DNA of 64,000 nucleotides from assembly GCA_003971905.1 (NCBI GenBank), contig RSEE01000005.1, forward strand, positions 682,001 through 746,000. Reading direction: 5' to 3'. Source of the stretch: Moniliella sp. 'wahieum' (taxonomy: Eukaryota > Basidiomycota > Moniliellomycetes > Moniliellales > Moniliellaceae). Shown here in pieces: positions 1 through 46,629 of the stretch. Positions within the stretch are counted from its first letter, which is position 1. Every line of letters starts with the position of its first letter. The translations under genes were made by a program, and so were the position numbers. The notes below the pieces were generated by a model. It did not search any database. It was not told the origin of the DNA and was given only the letters and a program-made list of their open reading frames with translations.

Positions 1-1383
1 CAGCGCTCGCACGTGGGCCGCCCAAAAGCGCCCAGCGCTGCTCTCCGCTCCGCAATAAGGTACTAGTTGCTGTAATAGGCCCTAGGCAAGATGATAAATT
101 GCATGATGCATGATGCATGATGCATGATGCATGATGCATGATAGGCTCCCTCTGCCCGAACCCGGAGCATGTGACTGGCCGGATGCCGGTGCCAGCGACC
201 AGGGTCTTCCGCCCGGCATCTGGCTCGGCAAGGGGTCCACACCGCACACCGAAGCCCTGCCGAAACTTGCCGATGCGGGCTACCACGGGCCACTGCACGG
301 GGGGGCAGTCAGTGCGCTTGGCGCCAGGCTGCGCAGCAGCGCTGAGCGCACGCAGCTTGGCGTTCCATTATCGCCTGCTTTTCATGCTTGGGCCGAGGCC
401 GAGCGCTGAGCAGGGGGCTCTCTTGCGAACAGCCCATGCGGCTGCGCAAGGCTGTGCGCACCGAGGGCCACAGCGCGAGGCAGGCGCAGAGGTCCACCGT
501 CGATCCTGTCATGGTCTTTCTCCTACAGCAGGTGGCTTCTGCCCAACAGGGGCACCTGCCAGACGCAGATAGCATGGGCAAGAGCATGGGGAGCGAAGTG
601 GCAAGGAAGGGAAGGGAGGAGAGAAGCGCGAGCGGCGCGACAGGGAAGCAGCAAGCAATTTCCGCGGGGGAAGAGGGTGCGCGGGTGTGCGTGCGGTTGG
701 ACATGGGATGGGCCTGCGAGTGGCTGCTGGTTGTGACGTGACGTGTGACGCCCACGCATGAGTACCACGGATAGAGTACCTGAATGGGGTGAGCGTGAGC
801 ACGGGCGCTGGGCACTGCGGCGCGGAGGCAGACGAGGGCAGGCACGCAGGAGCAGGATGCCGAGGCAGGCTGCTGGCATCCCAGACAAGGGGAGCTGCGA
901 GCGCCTGGTATGTGGGGGCGGAGCGCAGACGCTGCTAGGGACGGGGGCCGGCGAAGGCTTGGCGTGGCGCCGAACAGGTGGTGGCATGCGGGAGCTCGGC
1001 AGCGCCTGTGTTGCTCTGGTGGGTGCTAGTAGCATGCCGCCGCAGCCGTCCGAGCCCACGGGCACTGCGGCACCAGCCCACACTCGGCCACTGGCGCCCG
1101 CTCGCTTGCTCGACGCTCGAGCGCACGCTGCGGCACTGCGCAGCTGGCCTCGGCGCCCAGCCGGCAGGGCTGCTACTCGGCAGTACACTGTACAGCAAGC
1201 ACGCCAACCCAGCCCGCGGCTTCGGACGAGCGCTGCCGTCTCTGTCGTGTGCCTGGCCACAGGGCTGGGGTAGCAGGAATGGCCTCCCATGCCACTACCC
1301 TCTCCCGCTCCCTCCCCCTCCACCCCCCAGCACCACCAGCACCACCACCACCCGCCCGTCTTCTCTCCCTCTCCTTCCCTCGC
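1..1383. other. GC-rich spacer, no supported gene
   Basis: Several reading frames stay open here because of high GC, but none shows a recognisable domain, and frames on both strands overlap without preference. The only structure seen is the heptamer array at 101-142. A pyrimidine-rich tract (about 1296-1383) precedes the first gene. Confidence 0.5.
101..142. repeat. Heptamer array, six copies of GATGCAT
   Basis: Six perfect units of 7 bp, each a separator G plus the palindrome ATGCAT. It is the cleanest example of the heptamer arrays that recur in the spacers of this window, and the same unit reappears at 32465-32485. Confidence 0.95.
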
Positions 1384-3363
1384 ATGTCAGTCACCCGGGC
1401 ACAATGGACCAGCCAATTAGACCAGGCCCTGGTCGAGGCCTTTGCACAAAACACCCCTCTGTCCCAGTCGGTCCTCCTCGGGCCGCAACAGCTTTTGGCC
1501 CGCCGTGGCCCGGGCCATGCCACTGCCCATCCCCGCCAACCACGAGGACGAGCGGGAGCTGTGCGATTCGCTCCGGCATCGACTCAAGCGTCTGCGTCAA
1601 TACGCCGCTCAAATCCATCGTCTCCTCACTCACCCAGCCCAGCTCTTTGTCTGGGACCCCGTCTCCTTCAAGGTTCTCCCTTCCCCCAGCACCCCCACTG
1701 GGCCATCGGATGACACAGCCTGGGCCTGCATCGGCAATGCGACACTGCGCCATCGTCTGCGCCATTCCACCTTCCCCTGGTACCCACGCCTGGTGTTACT
1801 GCTGGATGACGAGGATCGTCGCACAGCACCCTCGCTTTGTCTCTCTCTTCCTTCCTCCGTATCCACCGAGGTAGGGAGCGAGCCATCGGCTCCCAGCTCG
1901 CTGGCTGCCGTTATTGCCTCGCCTGAAGCTTCGAGCTCAGCGCAGAGGGGGCGTAAACGCCGTGCCACCACCGCCTCCTCCTCCGCCTCCTTGTCCTCGA
2001 CTGACGACCTGTCCACACTGTTGATGAAAAGCAGGCCGATCTAGCCTTGTTGCCCAAGAAGCGTGCCGGCACCACGGACGGATCTCCTGCTGTTGAAAGG
2101 CACAGACTCAACAGTCCGGTGGGCAAACGAGCATGGACAACCGAGAGGGATGTGATGTTGGTCGAATGTTATATGGATAGTTTGGCCTCGGCCCCATCGG
2201 ATTCCTCGACCTCTGGCCCGGCGCCTGGGATTCGAAGGACGAGCAGTGTGTGGCGGGGGATTGTGCGAAAAGTGTTTGGGCCCTTGTTTGAGGCAGGCGA
2301 GGAGCGTGAAGCGGGGGATTCGGCACGGCATCGGCTCAAGAAACTGAAAGGCTATGCGGCGCAAATTCATCAGCTGCTCAAGACGACCGACCAACTCTTT
2401 GTTTGGGACTCGACCAATGCCTGCCTTCGGGTCAATACGGCGTTGGGCCACGACGAGGAGGCCACCTGGGCCAAGATTCGCAACCCCCAAGTACGCAATC
2501 GTTTGATGCGAGCTCATTATCCTTGGTTTCCACGCATCCGCATCGCCGAGTCCGACTTGCCCAGCACCTTTTACACCACCACCTTGGCGCTCACCTATTT
2601 TCAAGGTTCGCCTAGGTCACCGGTCCAAGCACAGTCTCTTCATCCACCCCGGCCCCTGCTAGGGTATCCCTCCCTCCCCTCTCCTCCCCCCTCCACCACG
2701 GACACTACAGGGGCAGACCCAGTACCCATTCGCTTATTCTGCTCGTCAGTATCCATCGTATGAGGTCCCCCCTTCATATCGTTTGCCCCTTGGCCCAGCA
2801 CATACACCGTACTTTGTTCGAGAGGAGCCTGCTTCCACAACCTGGTCCGGGGCTCGTCTGCCCCCTCTCGCGCGGAGGGACGGGCCGAGCAAGAGCTTGA
2901 CAGATCCTGCTCACCATACTGTCCTGCCCTCCCTGCGTGGCCCTCGTCGTAGCCATCCTGCTCTGCCTGCCTTGACCTGGACCGGTGCCCACCTTCTGCC
3001 GCTCGCCCATTCCGACAGACCCGTACCCTCCCACCGCTTCCTACCTTAAGAAAGCACCTTCGCCCCCGCCCTACCACTTTTCCCTTCGCCTCCCCTCCCT
3101 GACGTCCTCGCCGGAACCCGGTTTGGGAAGCGTGACGAGCAGCAGCCACATCATCCTCTCCGACATGGAACGCGGCCTGTGTGGGCCGCATCCCAGGCCA
3201 CCACTTACCTCGTGGGCCTGACCAAGCTCACCTCGGCGCAGCGGGAACTGTTTGAATCCGTTCGCCGATTCGATCCGGCCTCCTCGCTGGCCGACAGGGA
3301 AGGCGAGCGCAGGCGGGCGGAACGGGCGTATGCGTTGTTGGGCCAGCTCATACCACGTCCCTA
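1384..3363 (+). CDS. Unknown protein with a tandemly duplicated domain and proline-rich linker
   Basis: I do not recognise the family. The start ATG at 1384 opens a segment beginning MSVTRAQWTSQLD. Two related blocks follow. Block 1 (about 1400-1800) has a W-containing segment, then RHRLKRLRQYAAQIHRLL and LFVWDP, then FPWYPR. Block 2 (about 2120-2560) has the same order: AWTTERDVML, RHRLKKLKGYAAQIHQLL, LFVWDS and YPWFPR. The repeated W-rich helix followed by a basic helix could suggest a DNA-binding fold, but this is inference. After block 2 comes a proline/tyrosine-rich stretch (about 2600-3150), then a charged helical tail ending near 3363. Frame changes near 1470, 2040 and in the 2.6-3.2 kb part need either small introns or sequence errors; the one at 1470 is too tight for an intron. 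Confidence 0.55.
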
Positions 3364-3568
3364 GCCCTCCTGCCTGGCATGCGTGCCATTTTGACTGTCC
3401 CCTCGCTCGCGCTCGCTCTTTCCCACCTTGCGGGGGCTGCCACAGCTCGGGATGTGCTACGTTGTTGTATCTATATTTCTATGGATCGGCTGATATGTGA
3501 TAGACCGCGGACAGCAGATAGGAGGGGTGCCTGTCCCGAGGTGGGAGGCGGGGCGGATGGATTTCTTG

Positions 3569-4089
3569 TTACGGGCTGGCAGGCCTACCTTCAGGATGAA
3601 GGTTGACAACAATGTTGCCCATGGTGGATTGGGAGTAGGGGCAAATGCCCTCGGCCATCTGCATCAGTTTCCCCACCGCCTGCTTGTCCGGCTCGGAGGT
3701 CAAGGCGTAAATGTCAGCGGCAAAGCCAAACAGTTTGCCCGTGTCGGGCGGGCCGACGTGCACCTCCACCTCAATCGCCAAATCGGGGGGGACAACGAGC
3801 TTGTGTTGCCGCGCGCCGAGCTGGAGCGAGGAGAAAAAGCACGCGCTCCAGCCGGCGGCCATCAACTGCTCGGGGTTCACCCCGCTCTGCATGCATGGCC
3901 CGGCACGCCCAGCTTGAGCTCCAGCCCGGCCTCGGGCACCCGCACGTGGCCCGCGCGGGCAAGACCGGCCGAGGTGCCGGTGGCGGTGTACTTGATGCTG
4001 GTCAGGTGAGCCACGGCGCGCCGCGGCGGGGCGGCAGACAGTGCGCGCGGCAGAGAAAGGATGCGCGCGGCGGGGGCACGGAGCAGCAT
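3569..4089 (-). CDS. OsmC/Ohr family organic hydroperoxide reductase
   Basis: The family reduces organic hydroperoxides through a pair of reactive cysteines. The core shows YTATGTSAGLARAGHVR, then GVNPEQLMAAGWSACFFSSL with the first catalytic Cys, then VEVHVG, and the second-cysteine motif EGICPYSQSTMGNIVVNL near the C-terminus. These are hallmark Ohr segments in the right order, and about 170 residues is slightly longer than bacterial Ohr. The extra N-terminal 30 residues (start at 4089) are rich in Arg, Ala, Leu and Ser without acidic residues, like a mitochondrial presequence (inference). A one-base frameshift near 3885-3895 separates the N-terminal part from NPEQL. The gene is divergent from the Scy1-like gene. 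Confidence 0.88.
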
Positions 4090-4398
4090 GGCGGTGGGGG
4101 GGACTATCTATATCCATGACGTGCGGTTGGGGCTTGAGGTCGCATCACGTGACGCATGAAATGGCCCGGGGGAGTGGGTGGGGCGGTGGCACGTGACGGG
4201 GGCGGTGGCGCGCGAGAGGCAAGGCGGACGGGCGGAACGGGGCGGCGGAATGGGCGCGGCGCTCCGTATTCAGACGCGGGCGGAGTACTGACTAGGGCGG
4301 CCGCCTGGCTGCACCACCTGGCCCAGGGCGCCCCCAGAAGCAGAAGCGTGCGCCACCAGTCTTCGCCTGCGGCCGACGCCCCCCCCGCCCCCTCCGCC
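4090..4398. promoter_or_regulatory. Shared divergent promoter with two CACGTG motifs
   Basis: About 310 bp separate the start codons of the Ohr gene (-) and the Scy1-like gene (+). It contains the palindrome TCACGTGA at 4145-4152 and a second CACGTG at 4190-4195, plus TGACGTGC near 4119. CACGTG is the general bHLH E-box core. That these sites act on either gene is inference. Confidence 0.4.
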
Positions 4399-7172: not shown

Positions 7173-7177
7173 ACTGA

Positions 7178-7240
7178 GGACGGCGGACGGCGGACGGCGG
7201 ACGGCGGACGGCGGACGGCGGACGGCGGACGGAGGACGGA
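7178..7240. repeat. Tandem array of nine GGACGGC-type heptamers
   Basis: Seven GGACGGC units followed by two GGACGGA units, starting five bases after the Scy1-like stop codon, so it lies in that gene's 3' untranslated or terminator region. Unlike most heptamer arrays in the window, its unit has no palindromic core. Confidence 0.95.
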
Positions 7241-10868: not shown

Positions 10869-12894
10869 GGGTGGTGGTGGGGGGGGGGGGGCGGCTGTGG
10901 CTGTGGTGGTGGTGGCGATGGCTGTGGCGGTGGTGGTGTGATGGGCGGGTGCTGCTGCTGGTGATGGTGGTGAAGAGGAGGGTGCCGGAGCAGGCAAAGG
11001 CGTGGCTGCGCAACGGCAGGCGTGGGAGAGCCCCCCACAGCTCCAACCCGCTCCAACCCAGCTCCCGAGCCGATGCGGTGGCCGCCAGCGTCACGCGTCA
11101 CGCGTCATGCATGCGCCATGCAATGCCTCCCTGCAGTGGGCTGACAGTGGCAGGGTGCTGCGCATGCAGCTGAGCTCAGCACCGCGCTGGGCTGCCACAC
11201 CCGCTTGCTCCACCAGCGCTTGCCCCCACATGCCCGCGCGCCGCCCCCGCCGCTCCACCGTCGGGCATGCCTGCCAGGGGCTGTCGCCTCCTGCCGCCCA
11301 CCCACGGCCGATCCCAGTAAGCTCTGCATTCAAGCATACACGCCCCCTCCCTTGCAACTTCACAGCTCCACCCTGCCCAACCCACCCGCACGACGGTGCG
11401 TACTGAGTACTGAGTACTGACTAGACGGACTAGCATCCGCCGTAGCCCCCATCCCCACATACCTCGGCGAGAAGCGAAGCGCCTGTGCCGCTCTTGGTCA
11501 CCTACCCCGTTGGTCAGATGCATGCGCCATCGCCATCACCATCACTGGACCAGAGCATGAGGACTCAGACCGAGTACTCAGCTGAGTGAATATCGATCGC
11601 ATTCCTGCCTGCTTCTTCCCTCCTGCATGGGTCAACCGCTACCCTCGCCCAGCCGGCGTCGGCGTCCCTTCTCGCCCCTTCAGCCGTTCCCCCGCGCTTG
11701 CCTCCTCCTCCTCGCTCTCGTCCCCATCCGCCTTGCCATCCAAATCCGAGCGGACCAGGTAGGCCAAACGTCCGCCGTCCTTCCTCCCGGTCCTGCCCAG
11801 GCCCTGCCATCAGCGGCGTCCGTCCCCCCGCGCCGCCTCGGCCCAGCGTAATTGTGCCGCCGAGAGCGCGGAGGTGCGAAAGGGAGCGAGGCGAGATGGG
11901 CGCCCGGTCGTACAAGGGACTGAGGCGATTTGTGGTGAGAACACATCGTCTTCGTCTTCACCCTCCTCTAGCCGCCCCTCTATCCCTCCACCTCGCTCGC
12001 CATGCGCGGGGCAACAGGAAGAGCACCGTGGACAGCCACGGGGATTCCTGTCGCACGGGCACTGGGTGAACCAGGCGGCGACGTGGGGGAAAGCGTCCTG
12101 GCACGCTCCTGGGCCCATCCGGCTCCAGGTCATGCTCTTCGCAAGCAGGGAAGGCCTGATCCCATGTACGTCTTCCTTGGCCAGCACGCGTTGCAAGCGC
12201 CGTATGCTGGTGCATTTCGACGGAGCATCCGACGTGCGCTGGGCCGAGCGGATTGTGCGGCGCGGGCCACGTGCGCTGCCGCCAGGGGGTCAGCGCTGCA
12301 GGGGCGTGCAAGGCTGCCCCCTTGGGGTGGGTGTCGGTGCTAGGACACGCATCGAGGCCCGAGCCCAAGGCGAGCGCAGATGGCCGTCGTGCTGACCAAA
12401 CGGGCGTGACGGGCGAGGAGCCGGCACCGAGGATACACGTAGCTGTTGACGTGGACCGGTCAGAGGGTGTGGAGAAGGTGAGATCGGAGGGCGTGGCGTA
12501 GGCGTGGGCGCTGGGGGAGGGTGGTTGAGCGGCGCGCGGAACGGAGTGGGGGCCATGGGTAGGGTAAATGCGGCGGCACTGGGGACGGGTGGTTGGTGGA
12601 GGGCGGGGCATGAAGAGGAGAGGAGGCAGAGGAGGGAAAAAATACGCGCTGGCTTAAGCTGCTGATTAGCGCCGACGCCCAGCACTGCGGGAACGCGTCA
12701 CGCGTCACGTCGGTCCCAGCGGGTCTTTGAGCACTTTGAGCGGGGCAGCGCATGCAGCACTCTGCACGCCCCGCGCGGACCAGCCGATCCCACTGCCCCC
12801 CTTAACCCAGCAGGTAGAGTGGCCCAGTGGCCGCCCTGTGCGCCGAGGATGGGGGCAGTGTCCTAGCGCAGCCAAAGCACATTACAAACTGCAC
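10869..12894. other. GC-rich spacer, no supported gene
   Basis: Long open frames occur on both strands but show no conserved motif. A poly-proline frame on the minus strand (10870-11000) may be an extension of the SHD1 protein. Short ACGCGT repeats lie near 11091-11105 and at 12694-12706, and two GAGTACT heptamers lie at 11405-11418. A short acidic segment on the minus strand around 11950-12000 could be a small exon but cannot be defended. Confidence 0.4.
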
Positions 12895-12900
12895 AAAAAA
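12895..12900 (-). terminator. Pol III terminator of tRNA-Ala
   Basis: Six A on the + strand (six T in the transcript) lie three bases beyond the 3' end of the tRNA-Ala gene, as expected for RNA polymerase III termination. Confidence 0.85.
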
Positions 12901-12903
12901 GAA

Positions 12904-15993: not shown

Positions 15994-17342
15994 CCCTCGG
16001 TGTCATGACGAAAGATGCAGGAGGGTGGCGTGCTTGTGTTGGTTTGGTTGTCTCCCCTCTCTCCGTTTTCTACCTTCCTTTTTCTCCTCATTTCACGCCC
16101 CTATCTCTCCCTTCTGCCCCTTCTTCCCATCAGCAGCCGGTCCAAAACCCTCTTTGCATTCTCATATCCGAGCTGGTGGACACAACGGCCCGCCGATGAC
16201 CTCTGTCAGATGCCGGACCTCCCTGCCGCAAAGGTCAGACCGTAGTGAAATAGAAGTCGCCTTTACGCAACCCACTCTTGCTCGTGGAACAACCGTCATC
16301 AAACGCGCCATGTTTCGCCGCATCTTTCTAGCGGACGTATCGCTCGTGCCGTACTGTTCGATCTGTCCTACCTAGCGTGGAAAGCCGAAAAAGCAGGACA
16401 AGACCCGTTCATCTCAGCTCTGTGACATTGCATTAGTCTTGACCGTGTTCCTTGGGCACACTAGGTCCGTTTGGTTGATCGTCATTGGCCCTCTGTACTG
16501 ACTCCCCTCTCCATCTGCAGATTCCCATATTCCTCTCCTCTCCGCTTTACCTCCTAGTCTCACCTCTCGTACCACAACAACTGACGTGATAAATGCCTCT
16601 TCGAACTGGCTGCCAGCACCCCCACGCATCGTCATAACAGAAGTATGACTAGTACGGAGGAGATGAAGCACCCATCGGCGGACAGCCTTGTCTCGAAGCG
16701 CTTCATCCCAGTCTCATATATTGACGGTCGAAACAAGTGTCTGGGGTACCGCCCTCAAAGTAAAGCGAAGCGCGCGGTGTCCATATGTCCCCGCAACACA
16801 TTCGCAGCTGGGCGTCCAGTCTTCTGTATTATCGTTGGCCAACAAGCATCATCCTTGCTCCGTACCTCGTCCCATTCTTCTTCGCAGGCTGGGCGGAACC
16901 TGATCATGTTTTTACAGAGGCCCAACCGGAACCCACACCGCCCCACAGCCACTGGTATCTCTCAAGACATGGGAAAGACGGTGGGTTCCAATGTGACGGC
17001 GAAGTGTGGTGCTGTTAATTCAGTTGGGACGATGAGTGCCGTTTGAGCGTCCGTGGTGGGAGGTATGGTGGTATCTTGATCGGAGCGAAACGAGAGCCGT
17101 ATTTTGCTCTCAGATCTCATCGACTCTTCGGCCAAGGAATCCGATGTGGGGCAAATGGTGACGTCGAGACGCTATACAGGGGGATTACCATTACCTACGT
17201 CTCCATGTGAACCGATGGGACCATCTGGATAGTCTTCTTCTACTGAGATGAAGATTCCAGCAGGTGGCGAGAATACGAGGGAGAACAGGATACTAGTCAG
17301 ATCGTAGAACCGAAGTGGAGAACTAGGAATCGGAACACAAAA
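15994..17342. other. Spacer between pmt4 and tRNA-Arg
   Basis: No recognisable gene. T-rich and C/T-rich tracts near 16050-16135 are probably pmt4 3' sequence. Open frames on the plus strand (16645-17046) have no conserved motif. Confidence 0.45.
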
Positions 17343-28511: not shown

Positions 28512-30240
28512 TTTAAGTCGTAGACATCTCAGATCTCAGCCCAACACGCGTCAGTCCTGTTAGACTAGCGAGAGAGAGCCAGTCGACACCTTATCCATGC
28601 CCGTCATGGTCGCATGGGCTCATCGGTACGTTGCTTTGTGCCCATTGCGTCCAGTCTTAGGCAGAGCCCTTCCTGCTGCGCCCGACTACGCAGCGTCAGC
28701 GCGTCAGCGCCTTTGAGAGCACGGGCTGTGCATTAGTCTTTACCTCTCTGGAAAGCGCCCCGCATTCTGTCTATATACCTCTGTCATGGGGCACTTGAGA
28801 CCTGGTTCCTTCTGGTGTATATAAGCAGCCATGTCTCAGGCTTGCTAGCTGTGGTCCTTGATGACCACATCCTGTCTTTGGTCTCCTCGACTACCATGGT
28901 GTTCCTCTCTCGCCATTCCACCTTCTGCCACCCTTACGCTTACGAATTTATGACTTACGTTGAGTACGCTGCAAGCCGCGGTTACTCTCATCAGTAGCGC
29001 TTGCTCTTCGTTAGGACTTTGTTTGTTCCCGCCAGCTAAAATACAGCGTACCGAGTGTGATATGAACACTGCGAGGAACAGAGTAACTTCGGAGCTCCTG
29101 GACCCCTTCAGCTGGTCTAACGACCTACGTACGCGGCTCCTACCTCGAAGGGTCTGAGTTACGGCCTTTGCACGCAGACAGCCACCGAAACTAGAGGATC
29201 TCCCTCGCCTCTACACCCGCTCGGTTCAACCAGGATCTGAAGCAGGACCTAACGTACGAGACACCGATTGGCTTGTCCAAGGGTTTATACCCCTAAACTA
29301 CAGGGTGGGTCCCACCTCGGGACCTCCCCCATGACTTCATCATGATGGTATTACACTTGCGGATCTGGGGCGGTGGTAACCGGTAATCCACAGTCTATGC
29401 TTCCCCGGCCACTGGGAACATGCCAACATCGCACAGAATGTCAGTTTTACGCAGTGCTAGGCTTGACCCACTAGACCCGTATGGGCCCCTATAAGGTGTG
29501 ATTGCTATCAGTCGGGAGATGCTGTGTTCACGTTCACCTCTTAGCTGTGCCCCCTTCCTTCTGCGAAGCTGCATCTGAACCTCTAGTCCGTCCATATAAT
29601 GTATGCAAAATCCAACTGCTTCCCTTTCCTTCACCTCACGTTTCCTGACACAGAACCATAGCTGATGGGAGCGTGCCCCTGTGCTCCCTCGATGATCGCG
29701 CCCGGTGAGATAGGCTGTGTGCGCAAGAAGAGGATGGGGTGAATGGGGCGTTTGGAAGTCGAGCAAATTCCACGTATGCATGCCTCGAATAGAGCGCTCC
29801 CGTTCAACACGGCGCAACTGACTTATCAGCTTCATGCCACAGATAATACCCATCCATGGAGCCCCAAACATCTTGGAACCTTGGGTTCTTCGCGGATTTC
29901 GCTGTTTTGTATAGATGCAACGTCGAAAAAACGCATTTTGTGGGAACAGGACCGCCCCCCGCGTCGGTGTGCACGGTGGTGACGCCACACTGGTGTAGTG
30001 GCGCCGGCGGCCCAAGTCCGGAACCTTCGAGTTCATTTCTTGCAATATTCCTTGGCGGGCAGGAATATTCTCTAGCCTCTTGCACACACTATCATCTGTC
30101 TGGGCGCGGGTCTTTCACAACGGTTTCACCTGTGACGAGGGGGAGTCGTCGCACGGTAACCGACCGTAATGAAGACAGCACTGGGCGGAGGCGCTGAGGG
30201 TAATACAATGCTAGGCCAAAAAAACTCCGTGTATTATAAT

Positions 30241-30362: not shown

Positions 30363-30686
30363 ATAGCATAAGAGGAGGTGCCCTGTGTACTATGGGACGG
30401 AAACAAGTCAGGATGGGGAACCTAATCTTTCAGAGTGCACGAATAGCGAACAACGCAGCGAGCAGGTCGGCTTGACGACCGCCTTGATCAAAGCCATGTT
30501 CGCGGCCAATGGTTACCCGGTTACGCGTTACGCGTTAAGTGCTACATGCATGATGGATGATGCAGGATGCATGACATCACACACATCACAGTACACTGGA
30601 ACGGTCTGAGATCTGAGACTGGAGATCTGACATGGCAGAACATGAGACCCTGAGGGTAGGAGATCTGAGACCTGGGGTCAGCTGAG

Positions 30687-30718
30687 GCGCTGAGGCGCTG
30701 AGGCGCTGAGGCGATGAG
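30687..30718. repeat. Octamer array GAGGCGCT
   Basis: About four copies of an 8-bp unit GAGGCGCT with a final variant. It lies in the gene desert beside GAGATCT repeats (30608-30665). Confidence 0.8.
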
Positions 30719-31466
30719 GTCACCGGTCACCAGTCAGGCCAGGCCCCAGGCCCCAGGTCTCATGATCTCTTCGATCACCCATCTGCATCATGCATCATGC
30801 ATCCTCGGCCACCTAGTCACCGCGTCACCGGCCAGACAACCAGGACCGAAGGCGCCCTAAAATTATACAAGGCCAGAGGCCTATAACCTGTAAGATGTAA
30901 CGGGTCTAAGGCCCAATGCATAACTAGTAACTAGCCTAACTAGTAAGCAACAGCTACCTGGACCCCAGATGCATAGTGCCTGATACCCGAGGGGCTGGTA
31001 GATGCATTATCGATCCTTGATCGATGCCTGAATGTTCTGAACATCGACTGGTCTCCATCACAAGTCAACGTCAACGATGCGAAGCGCCAAGGGACCCATC
31101 TAAGTGCCTGAGCCCCAAGTTGATTGCGATTTGCATTTGCTCCCACACCTCGTCACCCTGTTCTGTATCTCCTCTTAGATCTTAATTACACACTTCCACG
31201 CGCCCACTTCTCGAACTCCTCCCAAACAACGATTGTGAATTAAATTGCCGGCAAGTTGGTCAAGCTACGACAAAAACACTCAACCCTTTTTACAATAAGC
31301 GCAAATAAAGCCCAAGCCTAAGAGCCTATAAAGCCTAACAAGAGCTCAAGCCCTAATAAGCCCTACACGCTAAGCCGCTGCCATGTACTAGCCCTGCCTG
31401 GTCCAACTTCGGAGTAGCGCTTAAGCTTTTAGCGCTTAGCCTAAGCCTTGACGCTGTTTTTGATTT

Positions 31467-31539
31467 GAAGCTTGATGCTTGATGCTTGAAGCTTGATGCC
31501 TGAGCCTGAAGCTTGAAGCGAAGCTTGAAGCTTGAAGCC
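31467..31539. repeat. Degenerate heptamer array GAAGCTT/GATGCTT
   Basis: About ten units of 7 bp (two shortened), mostly GAAGCTT with GATGCTT and GAAGCCT variants. The separator G plus the AAGCTT palindrome follows the same rule as other arrays in the window. Confidence 0.85.
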
Positions 31540-32464
31540 TCTTGGCCTGAAGCCGGAGGGGCGGCTGATCCTCGGCCAACCTCGTTGCCAGACCTGCGTC
31601 CTCTAGAACGCCTCTCCAAACACGCAACTCTCCATAACCCTCAAGCAAATTAACGCGGGGAACTCAGCTTGTTCCCCGTTACGCGTTCCGGTTGTTACGC
31701 GTGTTATGCATGCACCATGCACCATGCTACCATGCTATATGCGACGCGCTCAGCTGCGTTAAACGCTGTGAATCAACTTTACAAGCATTTACTACAAAGT
31801 TTTAGGCCTTAGGCCTTGGGTTCCAAGAGGTTCAACACTACGTTCAACTGAGCGGTTAAGCTCGCGTTCAAGCTTTTCAGCTTCAAAAGGTACTTCTTAT
31901 ACTGCAGGTACTGTGCTGCCGGTCCAAGGTGCTTAAGAACGGAATGTTGAACACTGCGCCGGGTGGGGCAATGCAGCAATGCGTGTACCGCTTTTGATTG
32001 TTACCTGTTATACTTTGGCACTTCATATAACCACAGCACAGCAAAAATGAAAAAGGCATCATGGACCACGCACACTCTCTCTGACGCGCCGTCTCTACGC
32101 TATAGAGGAGGGCTAGTAGATAGTAACTAGTAAGGGCAGGTCCAGCGGTAAGGAAAAGCGAGAATCGATCATCAATCATTAATCATCACCATAACGTTTT
32201 GCGTTTAACATCGAGGAGCGGGGTTGACCACGTTGACCGGTGAACGATGATCCGAGGCTATTGGATGGCGCAGTGTTGCGGCGGGCTGTTTGTTTGAATG
32301 ACTTGAATTGATACCGAAACAATCACGTCGGACCGAGGCACCGAGGCCCGAGGAAAGCTAGTACTCGTGACTAGTGACTAGTAGCTGCTAAGTTACTAAC
32401 TCGCAAAAGGGCCGTTTTTCTACTCCACTAGCCATTCCCGCTGTTGGCTTGGCAGATGGTGCAT

Positions 32465-32485
32465 GATGCATGATGCATGATGCAT
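32465..32485. repeat. Heptamer array GATGCAT (three copies)
   Basis: Same unit as the array at 101-142, more than 32 kb away. Confidence 0.9.
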
Positions 32486-32544
32486 GAGATCGAGAGCAGA
32501 ATGATAGCGGTGCCACGTGTCCATGTCACTAGCTATTTGCAAAT

Positions 32545-32610
32545 TGCACTATGCATCACGCATCACGCATCACGCATCACGCATCACGCATCAGATCTCA
32601 GATCTCAGAT
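32545..32610. repeat. Heptamer array GCATCAC grading into CAGATCT
   Basis: About six GCATCAC units run directly into AGATCT palindromes separated by single C. Two different 7-bp units thus abut in one array while keeping the same period. Confidence 0.85.
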
Positions 32611-32708
32611 AGGTCTTTCCCATCGTGTTCATCATGCATGTCACACTCATCCAGCTGCCAAATGAGCTAACTTTGCCAGAAGCCCCAGGTACCCGTTGCA
32701 CATAGACG

Positions 32709-32833
32709 TGTGCGAGGCGGCCCCGTTCCGCCTCTGTTCCGCCCCTGTTCCGCTCCTCCCTGTTTGTCCCTCCGGGCTGCCTTCCCCTGATTGCATCACA
32801 CCATCTCCCCTTTGCCTTGCTCGCCTCCCCACA
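32709..32833 (+). mobile_element. Short LTR-like repeat, copy 2
   Basis: About 125 bp, TG...CA ends, full-length similarity to 30241-30362. It is followed at once by TGG and a segment complementary to a tRNA 3' half, the order expected at the 3' edge of a 5' LTR. No pol or gag reading frame follows; the sequence downstream is heptamer-rich spacer, so the element is truncated or of the short non-coding (TRIM-like) kind. Confidence 0.6.
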
Positions 32834-32876: not shown

Positions 32877-33362
32877 GTTCGAAGCTTGAAGAGCTGAAGC
32901 TAGCTTAAATTTTAAAGCTTAATCGATAATCAGTACGTTCAGTAACTAGTAAACGTTTAAGTACGTTAAACGTTGACGTTTTAACGTTATTCATTGAAGA
33001 TGGAACACGTTCAACTCTTCAACGTATTCGGTCCTTGGACCGTCCACAGTCGGTCCTCAGGTTCTCAGGATCATCCATACTTGGTCCTCGGTATCAAAAT
33101 CGGCACCGAACCGTTCCAGCAATGTTCTCGGCTGCCGATGGTGCAGCACTGTCAAGGAACGCGCTCGGCGTTCGGCGTCACCCGTGCAACGAGGTAGTAG
33201 TCGGAGTAATTAGCTTTTTCACGTTTACGTCGTTTAACGTTAACCGACAGGGTGCAGCACTACTGCCTGCTTCACAGCTTCGAGCTTCACTTCAAGCTTC
33301 AAGCTCTTCAAGCTGCAGCCGCTGAGGTTCGGCTCGGCTCAGCTAATGCACTAATGCCTGGT

Positions 33363-33390
33363 GACCGGTGACCGGTGACCAGTGACCGGT
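33363..33390. repeat. Heptamer array GACCGGT
   Basis: Four 7-bp units, three GACCGGT and one GACCAGT, with the palindrome ACCGGT. A related GTCACCGGTCA cluster lies at 33760-33800. Confidence 0.9.
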
Positions 33391-33519
33391 GAGGCCGGTG
33401 ACCAATGCTAATTGTCACGCGTTACGCGTCACATATCACACGCTAAGCATTCGCAATCGTAGAGCTAACCAGCGTAAAGCTTAAAGCTTAAAGCTAGAAA
33501 GCTTAACGCCGCGAGGAAT

Positions 33520-33576
33520 GATCGATGGATCGATGATCGATGGTCTCGATAATCGATACTCGATAATCGATAATCG
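33520..33576. repeat. Heptamer arrays GATCGAT and TATCGAT
   Basis: Units around the palindrome ATCGAT: first separated by G (three units with one extra G), then, after a short gap, by T or A, still at 7-bp spacing. Confidence 0.85.
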
Positions 33577-33709
33577 AAGTCCCTAATCATTATCACCAGC
33601 AACGGAGTGCGGCTCGCTCAGTGCGCTCAGTCCGTTCAGTGTTGTTCAGTGGTTCAGTGCTGAGGTACTGATCGGTGGTCGCTTTGAAGCTTGATCGATG
33701 ATCAAGCGT

Positions 33710-33723
33710 GACGCGTGACGCGT
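33710..33723. repeat. Heptamer repeat GACGCGT (two copies)
   Basis: Two adjacent GACGCGT units with flanking half units. The same unit recurs near 11091-11105 and 12694-12706. Confidence 0.8.
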
Positions 33724-34015
33724 ACCGCGTAACGTTACTAGTCACTAGTCGCGGCCACTGGTCACCGGTCAATAGTCACCGGTCACCAGTCATCAGTCAT
33801 CAGTGGTCTCTCCGCCGGCCGTCACGCTCACGCTTTGCGGTTGACGCACTCGTGTTGCCACTACGTCGCACAATCCACCAGGCCTCTACGGCGTTGGGGT
33901 TGTCGGTCTCCCAAGGGAAAATTTCCAGCTTTCTACCGCCCACTCGCTGGTGCATCCGCTACCACCACACTTCGCCCTTGCCGCGCCTCCACCGCTGTCA
34001 ACACACCGCGCTCCG

Positions 34016-36197: not shown

Positions 36198-36337
36198 TTG
36201 TGGCCACATGAGGTTAAGCGCTTTGGCCCAAGAGGTCAAGCGCTTTGGCCACATGAAGTCAAGCGCTTTGGCCACATGCGCTCAATGGCTTTGGCCACAT
36301 GCGCTCAAGCCCTTAGCTCAAATGTGCCCAAACGCTT
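36198..36337. repeat. Tandem array of about six 22-24 bp units
   Basis: Units of the type TTTGGCCACATGNNNTCAAGCGC, the third and fourth nearly identical, outer ones more diverged. Each unit contains TGGCCA and an AAGCGC(TT) palindrome. Confidence 0.9.
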
Positions 36338-36744
36338 AGCTGTTGATTGGATGCGTGCTTGTAGGCTCTCCAACCGGCTGGCTGGCATCGATCCAGAACT
36401 ACTAGATTTATAGGCAGGGTAGGTATTTTTTAGGTATAGAATGCATTCGAAGATCGCTGGGAAGCGATGACACGGCAACCACGGTTAGGTGTGACGTCAG
36501 ACGGAAGCACCACAACGTAGTAGAGCAGCGAGCGGTTCAGAAAGTGGCAGGTTACTGTGAGGGGAGTGCGCACTAGGGAGAAGCTGGCCAAGTCAGCAGC
36601 AGCATAGGGTTAGCGAGAGACACAGAAGATGTGCGACGGACTCACGGGTTAGGCGATGAAGACGGCCAGTAGCGAGGGCAAGCGGGATGAAATCGGAATG
36701 TGCACTGGTAGAGCGAACAAGGTCAGGAACAGCGTCAGCATATA

Positions 36745-39671: not shown

Positions 39672-40845
39672 TGCGAGAACCAAATGGACATGCATTGCGC
39701 GATGAGGATGAGTATAGGTTTGGTGGCAGTCGTCGGTCGTCAGTAGCCAGGCCATAGGGTGGTGCGCATCCTGGACCCATCAGCCTGAACCTCTCCATGG
39801 GCTGCGCTTTGACATGATGCGCATGCGCACATAAAAGCTTCTTTTGCCGGCGAAACGAGCCAGGTGACGGATGACTGTCATGCGTCCCATGCGCAGGGGC
39901 ATGGCCGAAGCGAAGGGGCGGTTATGGAGTAAGAGGCCAGACGGTGAGGCGTGGGTTGCAGCCCCAAATGCCTGTCGCCACAAGCGTCGGGTCTCTGCCA
40001 CCGGCCTCTTCAGCCCCACTCCGCTTATCCAGCCCATCTACCCATTTTCCAATCCCGCCATTACCCTTATTTCAATTTTTCACTAGTTGATTGTCCTATC
40101 GTGTTTACAGTGGAAAACGTACCCACCATGCGTCCTGGTATAGTCCTTTTTATCCCTTCCATGCCCCGCACACACGCGAAGCTCTCTTCGCTCAACCACC
40201 CTCGTATCGTCCGCCTTGACACGGGCGAGAATGGTACGCCATGGTGCGCTCCCCCTTGGTCTCCGACCCAGACCCAACAACGTGTCTTGCCTCAGAAATG
40301 CGGAGCGAGCGAGGCTTCCCTCCACCGCCTGTCTCCTTCGCAGCGGGAAGCCTGGATGAGGCTCCGGAGTGGCGCCCCGGGAGGCAAGCGCCACAGCGAA
40401 GAAACCCCCAAAATGAAATTTTGGGTCCGTGCGGGCAAGGAGACTGAGCGATAGGGTTCGCGGCGAGCCCGCTGCACGGGGGCAGAGAGGCGGGGTCGTG
40501 CAGCGGGGGGCGAGTGTCGGGCGCCACGGACAGTGCTCGCGCTGCGACAGTGTGGCGAAGTGGCCCTCTGGCTCCGATCCAGCCAACACGCAGCGTTTAA
40601 CGTTCAACATTCAACCTGGCCCGGCCGCCCGCCCAGCCACCGGCGCTCGGCGCTCCATCCCACGCGTCGGGCGGGCGGTGGATAACACCTGCCACCACCA
40701 CCACTGCCAACACCGCCACCGCCTCCACCGCCCCCGCCACCTCCCTCTCTGCCTTATTTGCCTCCCCCCCCGCCCCCCCCCCTGCTAAATCAGCTCTCCC
40801 CTCTCCCCCACCTGTCCGTGTTTTGCTCAACATCGAGGTGGGACG
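39672..40845. other. Spacer upstream of the B55 gene
   Basis: No gene supported. A C-rich run (about 40766-40784) and CCACC/CACCGC repeats (40690-40760) lie in what is probably the 5' leader of the B55 gene. Confidence 0.5.
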
Positions 40846-42624
40846 ATGGCAAGCGACCCCGATGCTGGCTGGCGCTTTGCCCAATGCTTCGGCGACAAAG
40901 GCGAGGTCAAGGAGATCACTGAGGGTGCGTTGTGTCGCCCTACCTTGGCTTCCCGTCTCTACCTCCTTCCACACTCCCGCGGCTGCGCTCGGCGCAGTGC
41001 GGCAGGGCACGGCCTAGAAGATGTTCTGCTCTGCTAACCAATGACTGACCTGTACCCCCTTTGTTGTTGCCTCACCCCTGTTCAGCCGACATCATCTCGG
41101 CCGTTGAGTTTGACCACACTGGCGATTACCTTGCCACTGGTGAAGGGAGGACGTGTGGTGCTCTTTGAGCGCAATGACTCGGTACGTGCTGTTAGTATTA
41201 GGTGGCTGGACACTTGGCCCGATGGGAATTCGGGAAAGGGAGGCCCCAGCAAGGCGAAGGAAGAGGCGAGTACTGACGATATGCAATCCAACAGAAAAAG
41301 GGGTGCGAGTACAAGTTCTACACTGAGTTCCAATCGCACGAGCCCGAGTTTGACTACCTCAAGTCGCTCGAAATTGAAGAGAAGATCAACAAGATCAAGT
41401 GGTGCCGAAGGCAAAACGCAGCCCATTTCCTGCTCAGCACTAATGGTGCGTCATTTCCCGCCCCCGCTTCTCCAGCTTACTGACGCTCTGGACTTTTCCT
41501 GGACAGACAAGACGATCAAACTGTGGAAAGTATTTGAAAAGTCGCTGCAGATGGTGGCGGAGAACAACTGTCCGAAGGTTTTGCTCCCCCTGGTGCCTAC
41601 ACTTCCCGCGCGCTTGTTGATCCAGGGAGCGTCGTTCCTGGCAGCGGGATGCACCTCCGTCTGCCGCGGATCAACATCCACGACACCATTGTGGCGGCGG
41701 TACCGCGAAGATCTATGCCAACGCACATGCTTACCACGTTAATTCCATCTCGGTCAACTCTGATGCGGAGACGTACATGTCAGCGGACGACCTGCGGATC
41801 AATCTGTGGAACCTCAACATCTCGGACCAGTCATTCAACATGGTTGACATTAAGCCGGTCAACATGGAGGAGTTGACCGAGGTGATCACTGCCGCCGAAT
41901 TCCACCCGGTCAACTGCAACCACTTTGTCTATCCTCCTCCAAAGGCACCATCAAGCTGGCAGACATGCGCGACTCGGCGTTGTGCGACCAGCATGCCAAA
42001 ACTGTTTGAGGAGGAGGAAGGGGATGCCGCGTCGAAATCCTTCTTTTCCGAAATCATCAGCAGCATTTCGGATGTCAAGTTTTCCCATGATGGCCGCTAC
42101 CTCTTGTCGCGCGACTACCTGACTCTGAAGGGTGGGATGTCAACATGGACCGTGCCCCCGTGGCCACCATCCCGATCCACGACATCCGCTCCAAGCTGTG
42201 CGACTTGTACGAGAACGACTGCATCTTTGACAAATTTGAAGCGCTCTGGGGCCAGACGACAAACATGTCCTGACTGGTTCGTACAACAATTATCTCCACA
42301 TCTTGACAAGGACCACCCGACCCGGCTGCCAGTGGCGTGACGCTACAGGCAGATAGAGCGCGTTTAAGAACAAGAAGCTCGGCGGCAAGGGCCGGGGCAA
42401 GACACCGGGTCCCGGGCGGGGTGGCTCAAGTCGACGTGGACAATGTCGACTTTAGCAAGAAGATCCTTCACGCCTCGTACCACCCGCATGAGCACACTGC
42501 TGCCATCGCAGCAACCAACAACCTGTTCATCTTTACAGCCGCTGGGGCTGGCCAAGCACCGCAGATGGTGCAGGCGGTGCAGCCTCCGGCCTTCCAGACC
42601 ATGCCTGCCCAACCGGCCATCTAA
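40846..42624 (+). CDS. cdc55: PP2A regulatory subunit B55 (Cdc55/PPP2R2)
   Basis: B55 is a seven-bladed WD propeller that targets protein phosphatase 2A, notably in mitotic control. Exon 1 (40846-40924) starts [20 protein letters not shown]. Three introns are clear: 40925-41085, 41182-41294 and 41446-41506, all GT-AG, and their joins restore [22 protein letters not shown] and STNDKTIKLW. Further diagnostic blocks are [78 protein letters not shown] and [16 protein letters not shown], then the last blade [20 protein letters not shown] and ATNNLFIF. A Gln/Pro/Ala-rich tail ends at 42624. A single missing base near 41145 breaks [13 protein letters not shown]; more shifts lie near 41570, 41720, 41940, 42130 and 42280-42350. 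Confidence 0.95.
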
Positions 42625-45600
42625 GCCAAAGCCGGGGGGCAGACGACGAATAATCTGACGAATGCTCCACAGCCCTTGTGTGGAGGCGAGCAGTGAAATT
42701 GGCGAGCTTGGAAGCTAGAAGTTGGGGGCTCCCATGGGGCCAGACATGGCGTAGCTGAGCATTCATGGATGGTGATGGATGCCCAGGACTGTCTGGGCTG
42801 AAAGGATGGGAGTTGGGAGGAGATAGGGTTCGTCGTAGAGAAAACATTGACGTCGATGATGACGTCGATGTCATGTTGGGCTGGGCAATGGCGCAGCTTT
42901 GCGAGAAAATCAGGGGCTATAGGTAGGGCTGCGATCTGCGATGGTCTGAATCAATGATCAACCTGATTGCTGAGCTCCAGCCCCATCATGCATGGTGTGT
43001 CACTCCCATGCCATGACCGGGTCCGATCAGAGCTGGAGGTGACTGAGAGCCTGCAAACCATACGGGTTGTGGCTCAAGTTGAGCTCCAACATCGTCAAGG
43101 AGAGAGGATGAAGGCGAGGGAACGATGACGAGTGCGAAAGAAATAATAGGAGCGGCACTGACACCACTGGATGAAGGTGGATTCCGGGAAATTCTTGGTG
43201 GGGTGTGGGATGCTTTCGATCGATGCATCGAAGAGGGGATAAAGGCGATCGATAGCGGAACCGATTGAAGAAAGTTAGTTGATTCGGTCTTTTTCTGCTC
43301 GGGCTAGAGGCAGTTTGTGCTTGCCAGTTGTACACAGGACATTGTCTGGTAACTAAAAAGAAAGATGGCTCGGCTCCTCGTTTTTCAGAGCTGTTGCACG
43401 TAACCGTAACAGAGGTCAAAAAGGTCAGATTGACACCAAGGGAAAGCCACACAATAATGAGCGTTTTGAGCTCTGTCCATATTGTCTAACGTCACTTGCT
43501 GGTGCCGGCAAAACAACGAGACGTTGAAGGTTGACAATGTTGACAAGTTGACATGTGCATGCTCAAGGGACGCATTTTGTCCAGGATTATATAGCTCTTT
43601 GGCCCTTCTCCACGAAAAGGCCACAGGCATGTCGTGGGAGAGAGGAGAGGGAAGAGCCACGCCGGTGACCTACCACTGCATCCTGTCATGTTCAAGCGGG
43701 GGGCACATCGGAGCGCATCACGTGCTGATGAGCATCGACCGCAGTGGTAGCCGATGGGACGAACATATACAACACGGGTAAATGGTAAAAATAGTTATCG
43801 CATGGATGTCATCGATAGTGACCTTACTACTAAGGAGTGACTATTGACTCGTGATTAATGATTATAGTGGTCGTATTCCAGTAGAGCACATTCTGACACT
43901 CTGCGCCCTCGATATGCCAGGCGCTCGCACGCCACACGGATGCCATCGATGGATGAGGCTTCGCATTGGGTCGTCCAGCGGGCGCCCAAAATGGAGCCAA
44001 GGCCACCTACGTACATCTGTGCCCGCCGGCTCTTGCAGCTTGGCGAATGCGGAGAATGATTAATGAAGCTTGAAGCGTTTGAAGCTTATCAGAATAAACT
44101 TGCAGCGTGCTTCGGAAGCTTGAAGCTTTGAAGCTTGAATCATTAATCATATCTAGGCTGTGGAGCCCCGCTCGGGCCTGGGGAGGGTACCTGTGGGGGC
44201 ACACGTTACGGCAATATGCATTAGTCGTTATCGGGTGGGGTCGGAACGGCTGGGATGCATCATATTGGGACTTGGCGTATAGGAAGGACGGGGAAAAGCT
44301 GGAAGGCAGAGCGAGGACGACACGTATTATGTTGTGACAAGGGGTCGGACACAACATCCAACAGGTCTCCCCGTGGGATGAATTGCGCAGGGTCCACGGG
44401 TGGCGCCGGGTAGCTCTTGTCTATAGTTTAGTTTAGTGGGGGAGCCAGGGTTCGTGTGGGTCTTGCTGCGTTGCCTATGACAAAAACAAGCTGCTGCGCA
44501 ATCCATCACGTTCTGCGGAGGGCCGCGTGACGTGTGAGGAACCTGTGAGTGGGTGTTACATCTTACGCAACTGGACCAGGAATTCTTTGGTCTATACTAC
44601 TCTCAGGAGTATACTCCTCACTGATGTACTGATGCAATCACTTTCAAGCATCAAGAAGAGTCCAATCCAAGCTCAAAAGGTGTTTCAAAGACGGGTCTAT
44701 AATCCCAGAGGGTTGCTACCACGGTTGCGTGAAAAGCAACTACGTGGCTCAGCTTGCTCTGATAACGGTGGGTATATTAATAGTAGACCGGAGGAGCCCA
44801 AGCTCTCGGGAGGAGAGCCTTTTGGGCATGCAATGCAATGCCGACGGTGGTTGAAGTGTTGAGATCTAATTAAGTCTCTCATGATCTCATGCACCATGTG
44901 CATCACGGCACGCCACTTAGGAAAAGACACAGGGGTTCGAAAAGAGGCCCCGTTGTATTCACGTGTATTAAGAGGTCAAAGAAGGGGAGGATAATCGATA
45001 GATGGGTATACGAGTGGCGAAGAGAGCGCTGATGCATGATGGGGAGTCTGAATCCTCAACTGAGTACACTGAGTGTTGCTAGTGTTGAATGTTACTGTGC
45101 TGAAGCGGCGAGCGGGATGCTGATTCGCTGGTGGAGAGCACTTCTCGGTATGATGGGCGTCACATGTGGGGGTCGGAGATGAGAAACGTCCCAAGAAAGG
45201 GTGAAGATGCATGGCATGCGAGAGGAAAAATATGGCTGAAGCGTTTTTGATATGCTCTGTTTTAGGCACCTCGACCTTTTCCCGGGAGTAATATATACGG
45301 TGCGATCTCCTGAGATCATCGATCAGACCTTGGCCGAAAGGAGCGCGAATTATGAATCGAACATCGGGGGCTATCCATCTGCATCAACCCACAACCATCC
45401 TGAATTACAGTCCAACCGCAACGATGGAGACGGCTGTTGTGGCCGAAGCGAAGGAAGGATGATTCATTAGATTGATCAATGTGTTTTAGCTAGGTTCTAG
45501 AGATCTGGGAGGTACGTGCTTACATGATTACAATGGGGAAAGGCTGGCGTGGAGGGGGGATGCCTGGGATTTCGCATGCAGCATGACAAAAATAAATCTC

Positions 45601-45923
45601 TGCGAAAAGCGGCGTGCTTGGAATGAAACTTTTGATGGTGGAAGATGGGGTTGGATACTGGGGCCACCGTGAGAGAGTGGCCGAATAGGCTGCTCGTGGC
45701 AAAGTATCCAACAGGGTGGCGAGCTGAGCGCACTGAGTAACCGAGGACCGGGCGTAGGCCGTAGGACTCATCGACACCAACCAAACTTCGCAGCCGCAAA
45801 ACACGCCGGGGTAAGCGCTGGGCCCTGGAAGCCACCGAGGGGCCGCACCGAGGCCGCAAGAATGGCGTCCCTGACCGGTGACCTCACCAGTGATTGTGTG
45901 ACCGGTCTCCTACGGTGATCAGT

Positions 45924-45944
45924 GACTAGTGACTAGTGACTAGT
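45924..45944. repeat. Heptamer array GACTAGT (three copies)
   Basis: Three perfect 7-bp units with palindrome ACTAGT, flanked by partial units (AGT before, GACTAC after) and by further TTACTAGT repeats near 46000-46020. Confidence 0.92.
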
Positions 45945-46594
45945 GACTACGGTAGCAGTACCAGTACCGACTTCTACGGAGTAGTGACTTCAAGCTACCC
46001 TAGTTACTAGTTACTAGTGATCAATGATTATCGATTAGTGGCTTCAAGCTTCACTAGCACTAGTGAGAGCTAGTGAGGCCGAGAAGAAGCAAGTCAGCTA
46101 GTCAGATAGGGGGGTTTGACGAGATCAGTACTAGGTTCCTGTGGCCATCAACGAACAGTCGTTAGGCTTGTTAGGCCTTGGGGTTCCAGCGCCCAGCTCC
46201 CGCATTACAGAAGAGCTGAGCCGCTGATGCAGATGTGTGATGGCGTGGACGTGTCCGCGGTACCGCTGGTAATCACCGGCTTCAGGGCCCACACGTTCAC
46301 GGGAAGGCGCGGCAAGTTGGAAGGGTTTAGCTGAAGAAGACCTAAAAAAAACTAACGCCTGTGACTACTGGTAACTAGGAAGTAGTAACTAGGAACTGCC
46401 GAGGGGCCGGTGAGCCGGGTGGAGGGGCCTGCTGCGAGGCAAGGCCTTGGTGACGGAGCGAGGAGGCGGTGGCGGCAATCGGGAAGGGATGTGGCTGGTG
46501 CGCTGGACGAGCACGGGGGCGGACTGAGTTGGCGAGGGGATGGCTGGTGGCTATTGGATACTGGATGGCGCTGCGATGGGGACGTGTGCGCTGT

Positions 46595-46629
46595 GACATG
46601 TGGCATGTGACATGTGACAGGTGACCGGT
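46595..46629. repeat. Heptamer array GACATGT grading into GACCGGT
   Basis: Five 7-bp units in register: GACATGT, GGCATGT, GACATGT, GACAGGT, GACCGGT. The core passes from ACATGT to ACCGGT through an intermediate while the period is kept. Confidence 0.9.

Follow-up and report, generated by a model that had tools for sequence, protein, structure and literature searches.

7-bp insertions with an inverted flank copy at TNA sites and the palindromic heptamer arrays of a Moniliella genome

A stretch of 64,000 nucleotides from the basidiomycete Moniliella sp. 'wahieum' (contig C5:682001-746000, 59.6% G+C; hereafter the window) carries short tandem arrays of heptamers with palindromic cores, which raises the question of what exactly is repeated and how many different palindromes came to share one 7-bp period. 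An initial annotation of these letters had described the unit as G followed by a palindromic hexamer ANNNNT, had doubted that ordinary slippage could produce it, and had named selection for cruciform ends, fold-back synthesis, or binding sites for a dimeric protein as possible causes. Protein-family searches of the genome are likewise suggestive of a fungus, with 87 chitin synthase stretches (best E 1e-211, although four bacterial controls also gave signals), 62 tubulin stretches, an O-mannosyltransferase match, and 0 matches to the chlorophyll-binding family. We find that the constant part of the unit is the trinucleotide TNA (where N is any base) and that each elementary step inserts 7 bp at a TNA site.

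The arrays are real and lie far above chance. Frequencies were determined in a 264-kb sample, consisting of the window and one 10-kb stretch from each of 20 other contigs, or ~0.4% of the assembly (69.5 Mb in 223 contigs); counts refer to this sample unless stated otherwise, with both strands read where a form has an orientation. Perfect period-7 arrays with two copies or more number 179, and 105 of these have a 6-bp palindromic core, against 23 and 5, respectively, in a single Markov resample. At 2.7 or more copies, 32 of 45 period-7 arrays have a palindromic core, and the resample yields zero such arrays. A palindrome excess comparable to that of period 7 was not found at periods 4 to 6 and 8 to 15 in this sample. 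Genome-wide, (GATGCAT)3 has 424 matches and its reversed word has 0, four copies of GANNNNT have 4069 matches versus 893 for the reversed form, and AGTNACTAGTNA has 5565 versus 220. The 5565 matches to AGTNA-CT-AGTNA represent about three quarters of those to AGTNA-NN-AGTNA (7412), an approximate figure, as the two match lists nest inexactly; the reversed AGTNA-NN-AGTNA control (8611 versus 7412) is not neutral, as the reversed word itself contains TGA at 7-bp spacing.

The heptamer words that had been reported from the window are present at all the places given, although several of the arrays are shorter or more degenerate than described. Thus, GAGATCT at 30608-30665 forms a single 2-copy array plus scattered copies, the words at 33520-33545 follow one another in mixed 7- and 8-bp steps, and the arrays at 31467-31539 and 46595-46629 are imperfect. 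The outer A..T pair of the ANNNNT form is found in 97 of the 105 palindromic-core arrays, but the separator is not restricted to G/C: it is G or C in 81 of them and A or T in 24. Exact arrays of at least 14 bp contain 12 of the 16 ANNNNT palindromes rather than the full set. The proposed unit amounts to one rotation of the real one, a palindromic tetramer plus TNA, with any base as N.

This frame is apparent from the spacing of the TNA trinucleotides. At a lag of 7, one TNA is followed by another 771 times, compared to 380 to 555 times at every other lag between 3 and 44, and only pairs that share the same N contribute to the excess (511 versus ~156 at lags 18 to 37). The intervening tetramer is palindromic in 272 of the 511 same-N pairs, in 42 of the 260 different-N pairs, and in 10.5% of cases after any TNA. 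Among 90 same-N chains with at least 2 palindromic tetramers, 28 contain at least 2 kinds of them (this count covers the window and the loci up to L046, minus L004, L006, and L035, and some of its rows come from overlapping or homologous loci). The in-register switches between palindromes that had been noted earlier are therefore genuine, as in the transition from TCA + CGCA to TCA + GATC at 32553..32610. Since neighbouring units may carry different palindromes while keeping TNA and its N, it is TNA that stays constant, and palindromic tetramers do not require identical units. What the arrays have in common is a TNA every 7 bp, its N unchanged from one unit to the next, plus a palindromic tetramer.

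The smallest form of this pattern is not an array. Among period-7 match runs that include TNA and a palindromic tetramer, lengths of 5 and 6 matched bases are the most frequent (62 and 50 runs, compared to 17 and 15 at 3 and 4 bases and 22 at 7). These runs reveal an element of 12 bp, xyTNA-y'x'-xyTNA, in which the two copies of a 5-bp direct repeat are separated by the reverse complement of the repeat's own first two bases. Isolated, one-sided 12-mers of this kind number 81, or ~300 per Mb. Their N is C in 29 cases, G in 28, A in 15, and T in 9, and they use 15 of the 16 xy dinucleotides; a strong consensus was not found in the flanks of these 81 elements. The rate of insertion per xyTNA site varies from 0 (TA) to 6.8 per 1000 (AG) and displays no simple trend with G+C content.

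A scan of the general form S-L-S'-S-L, with stems (S) of 1 to 4 and loops (L) of 1 to 8 bases, peaks at stem 2 and loop 3 with TNA as the loop; stem 1 with loop 5 and stem 3 with loop 1 are also raised, because these registers overlap the same elements. With stem 2 and loop 3, the palindromic form accounts for 123 of 161 direct repeats for TGA, 121 of 167 for TCA, 36 of 48 for TAA, and 26 of 37 for TTA, which together give 304 of 411 for TNA loops compared to 216 of 3282 for all other 3-base loops, the next best being TGG with 15 of 54. Among 4-base loops, TNAn (41/89) and nTNA (20/49) stand out from the rest (30/769, with TNNA at 1/11), and the 5-base loops are palindromic in 31 of 133 cases with TNA and in 18 of 461 without it. 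Usage drops with loop size from 3 to 4 to 5 and is nil at 6, which is the pattern that fold-back hairpins would give. For 7-bp insertions around TNA, a 2-base palindromic copy is seen in 130 cases (4.0 expected), a 1-base copy in 11 (8.5), and none in 48 (37.7); a copy length of 3 is indistinguishable from 2 here, since the T and A of TNA are complementary in any case. The 2-base copy also accompanies insertions of 8 bp (26 versus 2.4) and 9 bp (15 versus 2.4), with 0 versus 1.5 at 10 bp, whereas insertions of 5 and 6 bp around TNA show no excess (21 versus 31.7 and 44 versus 59.4 expected). A scheme in which 0, 1, or 2 bases are added in proportion to the bases lost was considered and dropped, as the exact count shows 2 to be the rule.

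Direct evidence for insertion comes from homologous DNA in the same assembly. Long pairs of homologous segments with ~86 to 94% identity are found between C5 and another contig, C27, and between loci L029 and L034, which suggests a genome that may be duplicated, hybrid, or highly heterozygous. We aligned the window at 28.9-35.5 kb with its C27 homologue (86 to 94% identity, 6436 window bases aligned). The most common gap lengths are 1 bp (55), 2 bp (17), and, in third place, 7 bp, with 13 alignment rows that represent 9 distinct gaps, four of them repeated through overlapping alignments, in which one gap event may be counted twice. Gap classes were assigned by eye after a script that flagged 8 of 17 rows. 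Five of the 9 gaps are exact insertions of the predicted form (32131, 32937, 33571, 33673, and 33765), one is exact save one substitution (29231), one duplicates 7 bp around TNA without a palindromic copy (33798), and two are misfits. Of the five exact ones, only the gap at 33571 is a unit added to an existing repeat. L017, a third copy that is more distant, likewise lacks the insertion at 29231, which supports gain over loss there. A further copy, on C45 (L041), contributes two more exact cases, one per direction, one of them read by eye. The sites compared are as follows.

28527..28538, plus strand: isolated 12-mer TCTCA-GA-TCTCA; the C45 relative is empty, by eye from the alignment.
29375..29386, plus strand: GGTAA-CC-GGTAA; C27 is without the insertion (exact case 29377, with a 6-bp aligned gap and one further base that differs).
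32122..32135, plus strand: AGTAA-CT-AGTAA followed by GG; C27 has a second insertion at the same TAA (gap 32131, where the window has the empty TAAGG).
32553..32610, no strand given: TCA + CGCA array passing into TCA + GATC in register; the C27 length differs (32553-32593).
32930..32934, minus strand: TCAGT, empty, with AC next; C27 has TCAGT-AC-TCAGT.
33562..33575, plus strand: GATAATC array, one unit shorter in C27.
33667..33671, plus strand: ACTGA, empty; C27 has ACTGA-GT-ACTGA.
33760..33771, plus strand: GGTCA-CC-GGTCA, filled; C27 has the empty GGTCA.

One of these comparisons catches an in-register switch directly, with TAACTAGTAAGG in the window and TAACTAGTAAGGCCTAAGG in C27. At 32122-32135, the window reads AGTAACTAGTAAGG, and C27 has the same sequence plus a right-hand insertion, TAAGG-CC-TAAGG, which switches the tetramer from CTAG to GGCC. 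The elementary event is thus a 7-bp insertion (less often 8 or 9 bp) at NNTNA that converts xyTNA to xyTNA-y'x'-xyTNA; it hits single sites, beyond the growth of arrays, in both orientations, and can recur at the same TNA. Left- and right-hand insertions flanking one seed, xyTNAzz, result in arrays with one TNA frame and possibly different tetramers on each side.

Filled and empty sites bear on a rival explanation, in which these are ordinary microsatellites, their palindromic heptamers expanding via slipped-strand hairpins as CNG triplets do. Expandable CNG triplet repeats combine a single separator base with a palindrome, and their arrays can fold with one mismatch per unit; here, unlike in CNG triplets, the period is 7, only TNA serves, and single-event insertions have empty counterparts. 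Long arrays of identical units, as well as C5/C27 lengths that differ by whole units, fit growth by slippage after seeding. However, isolated 12-mers need no earlier tandem repeat, and such a repeat is missing from the majority of the exact empty sites: the empty TAAGG, ACTGA, and GGTCA hold a single xyTNA where the filled sites read xyTNAy'x'xyTNA. In addition, periods 5 and 9, which would correspond to 4- and 8-bp palindromes, are not enriched, TNA alone works, and different palindromes keep one register and one N. Slippage is therefore disfavoured as the origin, and we consider it improbable in that role, while it is a likely cause of later array growth; in this respect, the view that slippage by itself does not account for palindromic cores was correct.

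An artefact of sequencing or assembly that adds 7 bases at small hairpins should also be considered, given that a single assembly is available and that presence and absence differ between two of its contigs. Twelve-base matches in the window number 93, in 50 clusters, 40 of which start in 28-34 kb or 42-48 kb. None of the 93 starts within the six intervals, 8.0 kb in all, with reading frames matched by Pfam, compared to 50 clusters in the 64 kb, as would be expected if 7-bp insertions, which shift the frame when they fall into exons, are purged from coding sequences. Furthermore, the arrays bear later substitutions, and some units are common to related loci (e.g., L029 and L034). An artefact thus appears very improbable. 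The remaining arrays and isolated elements of the window are the following.

102..141, plus strand: CATGATG array (TGA + TGCA), six units.
11089..11107, no strand given: CGTCACG array (TCA + CGCG).
11402..11420, no strand given: ACTGAGT array (TGA + GTAC).
17108..17119, plus strand: isolated 12-mer TCTCA-GA-TCTCA.
30521..30537, no strand given: TTACGCG array (TTA + CGCG), with an A/T separator.
30681..30719, plus strand: 8-bp variant array GC-TGAG-GC, with a TNAn loop.
31173..31184, plus strand: isolated 12-mer TCTTA-GA-TCTTA.
31465..31538, plus strand: TGA + AGCT array, degenerate.
32462..32487, plus strand: CATGATG array (TGA + TGCA).
33360..33403, plus strand: TGA + CCGG array, degenerate.
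33707..33720, plus strand: CGTGACG array (TGA + CGCG).
44055..44075, plus strand: TGA-TTAA-TGA-AGCT, two palindromes sharing a register.
45921..45948, plus strand: AGTGACT array (TGA + CTAG), four units.
46002..46015, plus strand: AGTTACT array (TTA + CTAG).
46606..46631, plus strand: TGA + CATG / CAGG / CCGG array, degenerate.
57141..57152, plus strand: isolated 12-mer ACTTA-GT-ACTTA.
63182..63200, no strand given: TCAACGT array (TCA + ACGT).

Two tandem repeats of other kinds are also found in the window, (GGACGGC)9 at 7178-7239, a heptamer repeat without a palindromic core, and five copies of a 23-bp unit, TGGCCACATGAGGTCAAGCGCTT, at 36201-36314.

The suggestion that the arrays are kept by selection as sites bound by a dimeric DNA-binding protein could draw on the symmetry of TNA about N and on the fixed 7-bp spacing of the units. 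However, 15 of the 16 xy dinucleotides and every N are used, so that almost any palindromic tetramer serves and T and A are the only base-specific part of a half-site; the ~300 isolated elements per Mb and the filled/empty differences at single sites are also hard to reconcile with it. This part of the earlier proposal finds no support, and we regard it as barely credible. Selection for cruciform ends is likewise unneeded, because the insertion step itself makes the palindrome.

Fold-back synthesis, the remaining one of these proposals, is a proper candidate. The best explanation of the data, to which we attach a confidence just short of even, is site-specific fold-back copying with a 2-bp stem and a TNA loop. 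Synthesis or repair would begin from a nick or stall located two bases 5' of TNA, and the new strand would copy xyTNA, or 1 to 2 bases beyond it. Its end would then fold back on itself as a mini-hairpin (2-bp stem, TNA loop), copy y'x' from its own xy, and rejoin the original path at x, whereupon the 7-base hairpin would be fixed as an insertion; ordinary slippage may later lengthen some arrays. Such a route predicts one-step 7-bp products, a fall-off in loop size in the order 3 > 4 > 5, an exact return to x, and two-sided arrays. The inverted copy of adjacent sequence that it implies is present in the inserts, both in the 7-bp class with its 130 cases and in the filled/empty pairs. The strictness of the rule suggests a dedicated process of fold-back copying or cutting, and the recognition of TNA and the two-base stem are probably set by an enzyme.

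Several observations weigh against site-specific fold-back copying. Base pairing alone explains neither the use of TNA over GNC, CNG, or ANT nor the lack of an excess for stem 3 with TNA (3/55). The gaps at 31694 and 33605 (2 of the 9) break the insertion rule. Plain duplications around TNA are modestly in excess at 9 bp, outside the two-base rule (60 versus 36.6), and, where the two extra bases are both templated, at 7 bp (15 versus 8.5), so that not every event carries the copy. The left copy reaches at most 7 bp, centred on N (NNTNANN), which is equally compatible with a staggered cut. Finally, the DNA energy set that we used assigns the same energy to every triloop and is hence uninformative. 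In addition, the inserts differ from the products of fold-back priming at inverted microhomology with variable length: they are 7, 8, or 9 bp only, and just the T..A of TNA could pair.

Some of these points would be accommodated by a footprint of excision or break repair. A transposase, recombinase, or nuclease would cut NNTNANN with a 7-base stagger, the ends would be filled in to give a target duplication, and a hairpinned end would be opened two bases from its tip, leading to the addition of 2 palindromic (P) nucleotides, with the left copy trimmed by 0 to 2 bases. The symmetry of TNA about N is consistent with such a cut, as is the modest excess of plain 7- and 9-bp duplications around TNA, and in the 264-kb sample no left copy of more than 7 bases was found together with a palindromic copy. 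P-nucleotide additions are typical of excision of the hAT elements Ac/Ds, in yeasts and plants, according to PMC5873905. The likeness extends to duplicated target flanks and a palindromic addition at the joint; there, however, the palindromes vary in length and accompany a transposon, whereas here the addition is overwhelmingly 2 bases, is never enriched at 1 base for 7-bp insertions, and comes with no element found in the sample. In the sampled loci (~0.4% of the genome), no convincing element was found that combines terminal inverted repeats (TIRs) with a 7-bp duplication centred on TNA: a TIR scan for a transposon flanked by such duplications gave five duplication candidates, and the single TNA-centred one lay within arrays. 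Direct repeats of TNA-centred 7-mers at distances of 10 to 5120 bp track the ANT control, the largest share difference being 178 versus 138 at 320 to 640 bp. The hAT dimerisation domain (PF05699) had 0 matches at E<=0.001, a weak result, with the controls silent too. On balance, we judge an excision or repair footprint to be rather unlikely.

As for other known systems, Harbinger/IS5-type elements produce TNA or TWA target duplications, and here, too, TNA is duplicated around each tetramer. In contrast to those elements, the duplicated unit is xyTNA, and the tetramer is derived from the flank. Between same-N TNAs, inserts of 4 bp stand out, and lengths of 5 to 30 bp are not comparably enriched save for array multiples (11 and 18); a search for Harbinger/IS5-like inserts of 10 to 699 bp with 5-bp inverted ends gave 229 of 85604 for same-N and 375 of 192166 for different-N pairs, the surplus being mainly array multiples. 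Fold-back priming is reviewed in PMC7999016. In yeast, PMC11724301 describes fold-back insertions at a single induced double-strand break, with 10-bp inverted microhomology and a 41-base loop, and insertions of 2 to ~150 bp captured by end joining, 2-bp inversions included. The resemblance lies in very short inverted copies of adjoining sequence made by fold-back priming; the insertions described there differ from the present ones in their size, here 7(-9) bp, and in the TNA rule, the 2-bp stem, and the many genomic places hit.

Bacterial heptamer repeats (PMC4692102) likewise consist of tandem 7-mers, some of them palindromic. The word (GACTAGT)3 is common in bacterial genomes, with at least 93 stretches (L049-L141) that hold up to 9 matches per 8 kb and come from many unrelated genomes, including Flavobacteriales, Gemmatimonadaceae, Gastranaerophilales, Omnitrophota, and Clostridia. 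As control DNA, we used 728 kb (L047-L142) comprising 93 bacterial loci, 2 viral contigs, and 50 kb of Escherichia coli; words with CTAG, TAGT, or ACTA were excluded from the comparison with our sample, since most control loci had been picked by them. The diagnostic 12-mer class (P2A5) is at chance in the control (5 versus 5.3 expected) and far above it here (50 versus 1.7). Four other classes are enriched in the control, namely, P0A7 (26 versus 7.3), P1A6 (17 versus 9.0), P1A7 (8 versus 1.5), and P2A6 (15 versus 1.1), which may reflect species-specific heptamers in loci chosen for such arrays. In the bacterial (GACTAGT)n loci the seed recurs and other TNA palindromes are hardly present, and we take (GACTAGT)3 there to be a separate, single-sequence repeat. 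In the literature searched, which was limited to open-licence papers, no description of palindromic heptamer arrays or of such insertions was found.

Larger insertions also distinguish the window from its C27 homologue. A repeat of ~125 bp with TG...CA ends at 32709-32833, absent from the C27 homologue, has copies in L040-L046 and in ~40 more places genome-wide, with probable 5-bp duplications in several copies; the window copy is followed by a tRNA-like stretch (to 32869). From its sequence, this repeat looks like a small family of long terminal repeats (LTRs), similar to the terminal-repeat retrotransposons in miniature (TRIM). Conversely, C27 carries an 836-bp insertion (L039 1809-2644) that the window lacks. 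This insertion resembles a solo LTR, its inverted ends being 10 bp long (TGTCACGGGC/GCCCGTGACA) and its 5-bp duplication reading CTCGG; a third large insertion, of ~3.5 kb in C27, was seen at its ends only. Both the repeat at 32709-32833 and the 836-bp insertion are retroelement-like.

These results indicate that short tandem repeats can be born without slippage, by a single templated 7-bp insertion that follows a readable rule. The coexistence of empty and filled states in one genome makes the birth of microsatellites directly testable. The insertions point to a candidate fold-back polymerase, nuclease, or transposase-like activity with TNA specificity. It is a doubtful but possible extension that this is a dedicated, cargo-free system, in which a TNA-recognising enzyme acts two bases away and writes flank-templated 7-bp insertions repeatedly and genome-wide. 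If that is true, it would be a mobile-element-like process without a mobile element, seeding a whole class of palindromic repeats.

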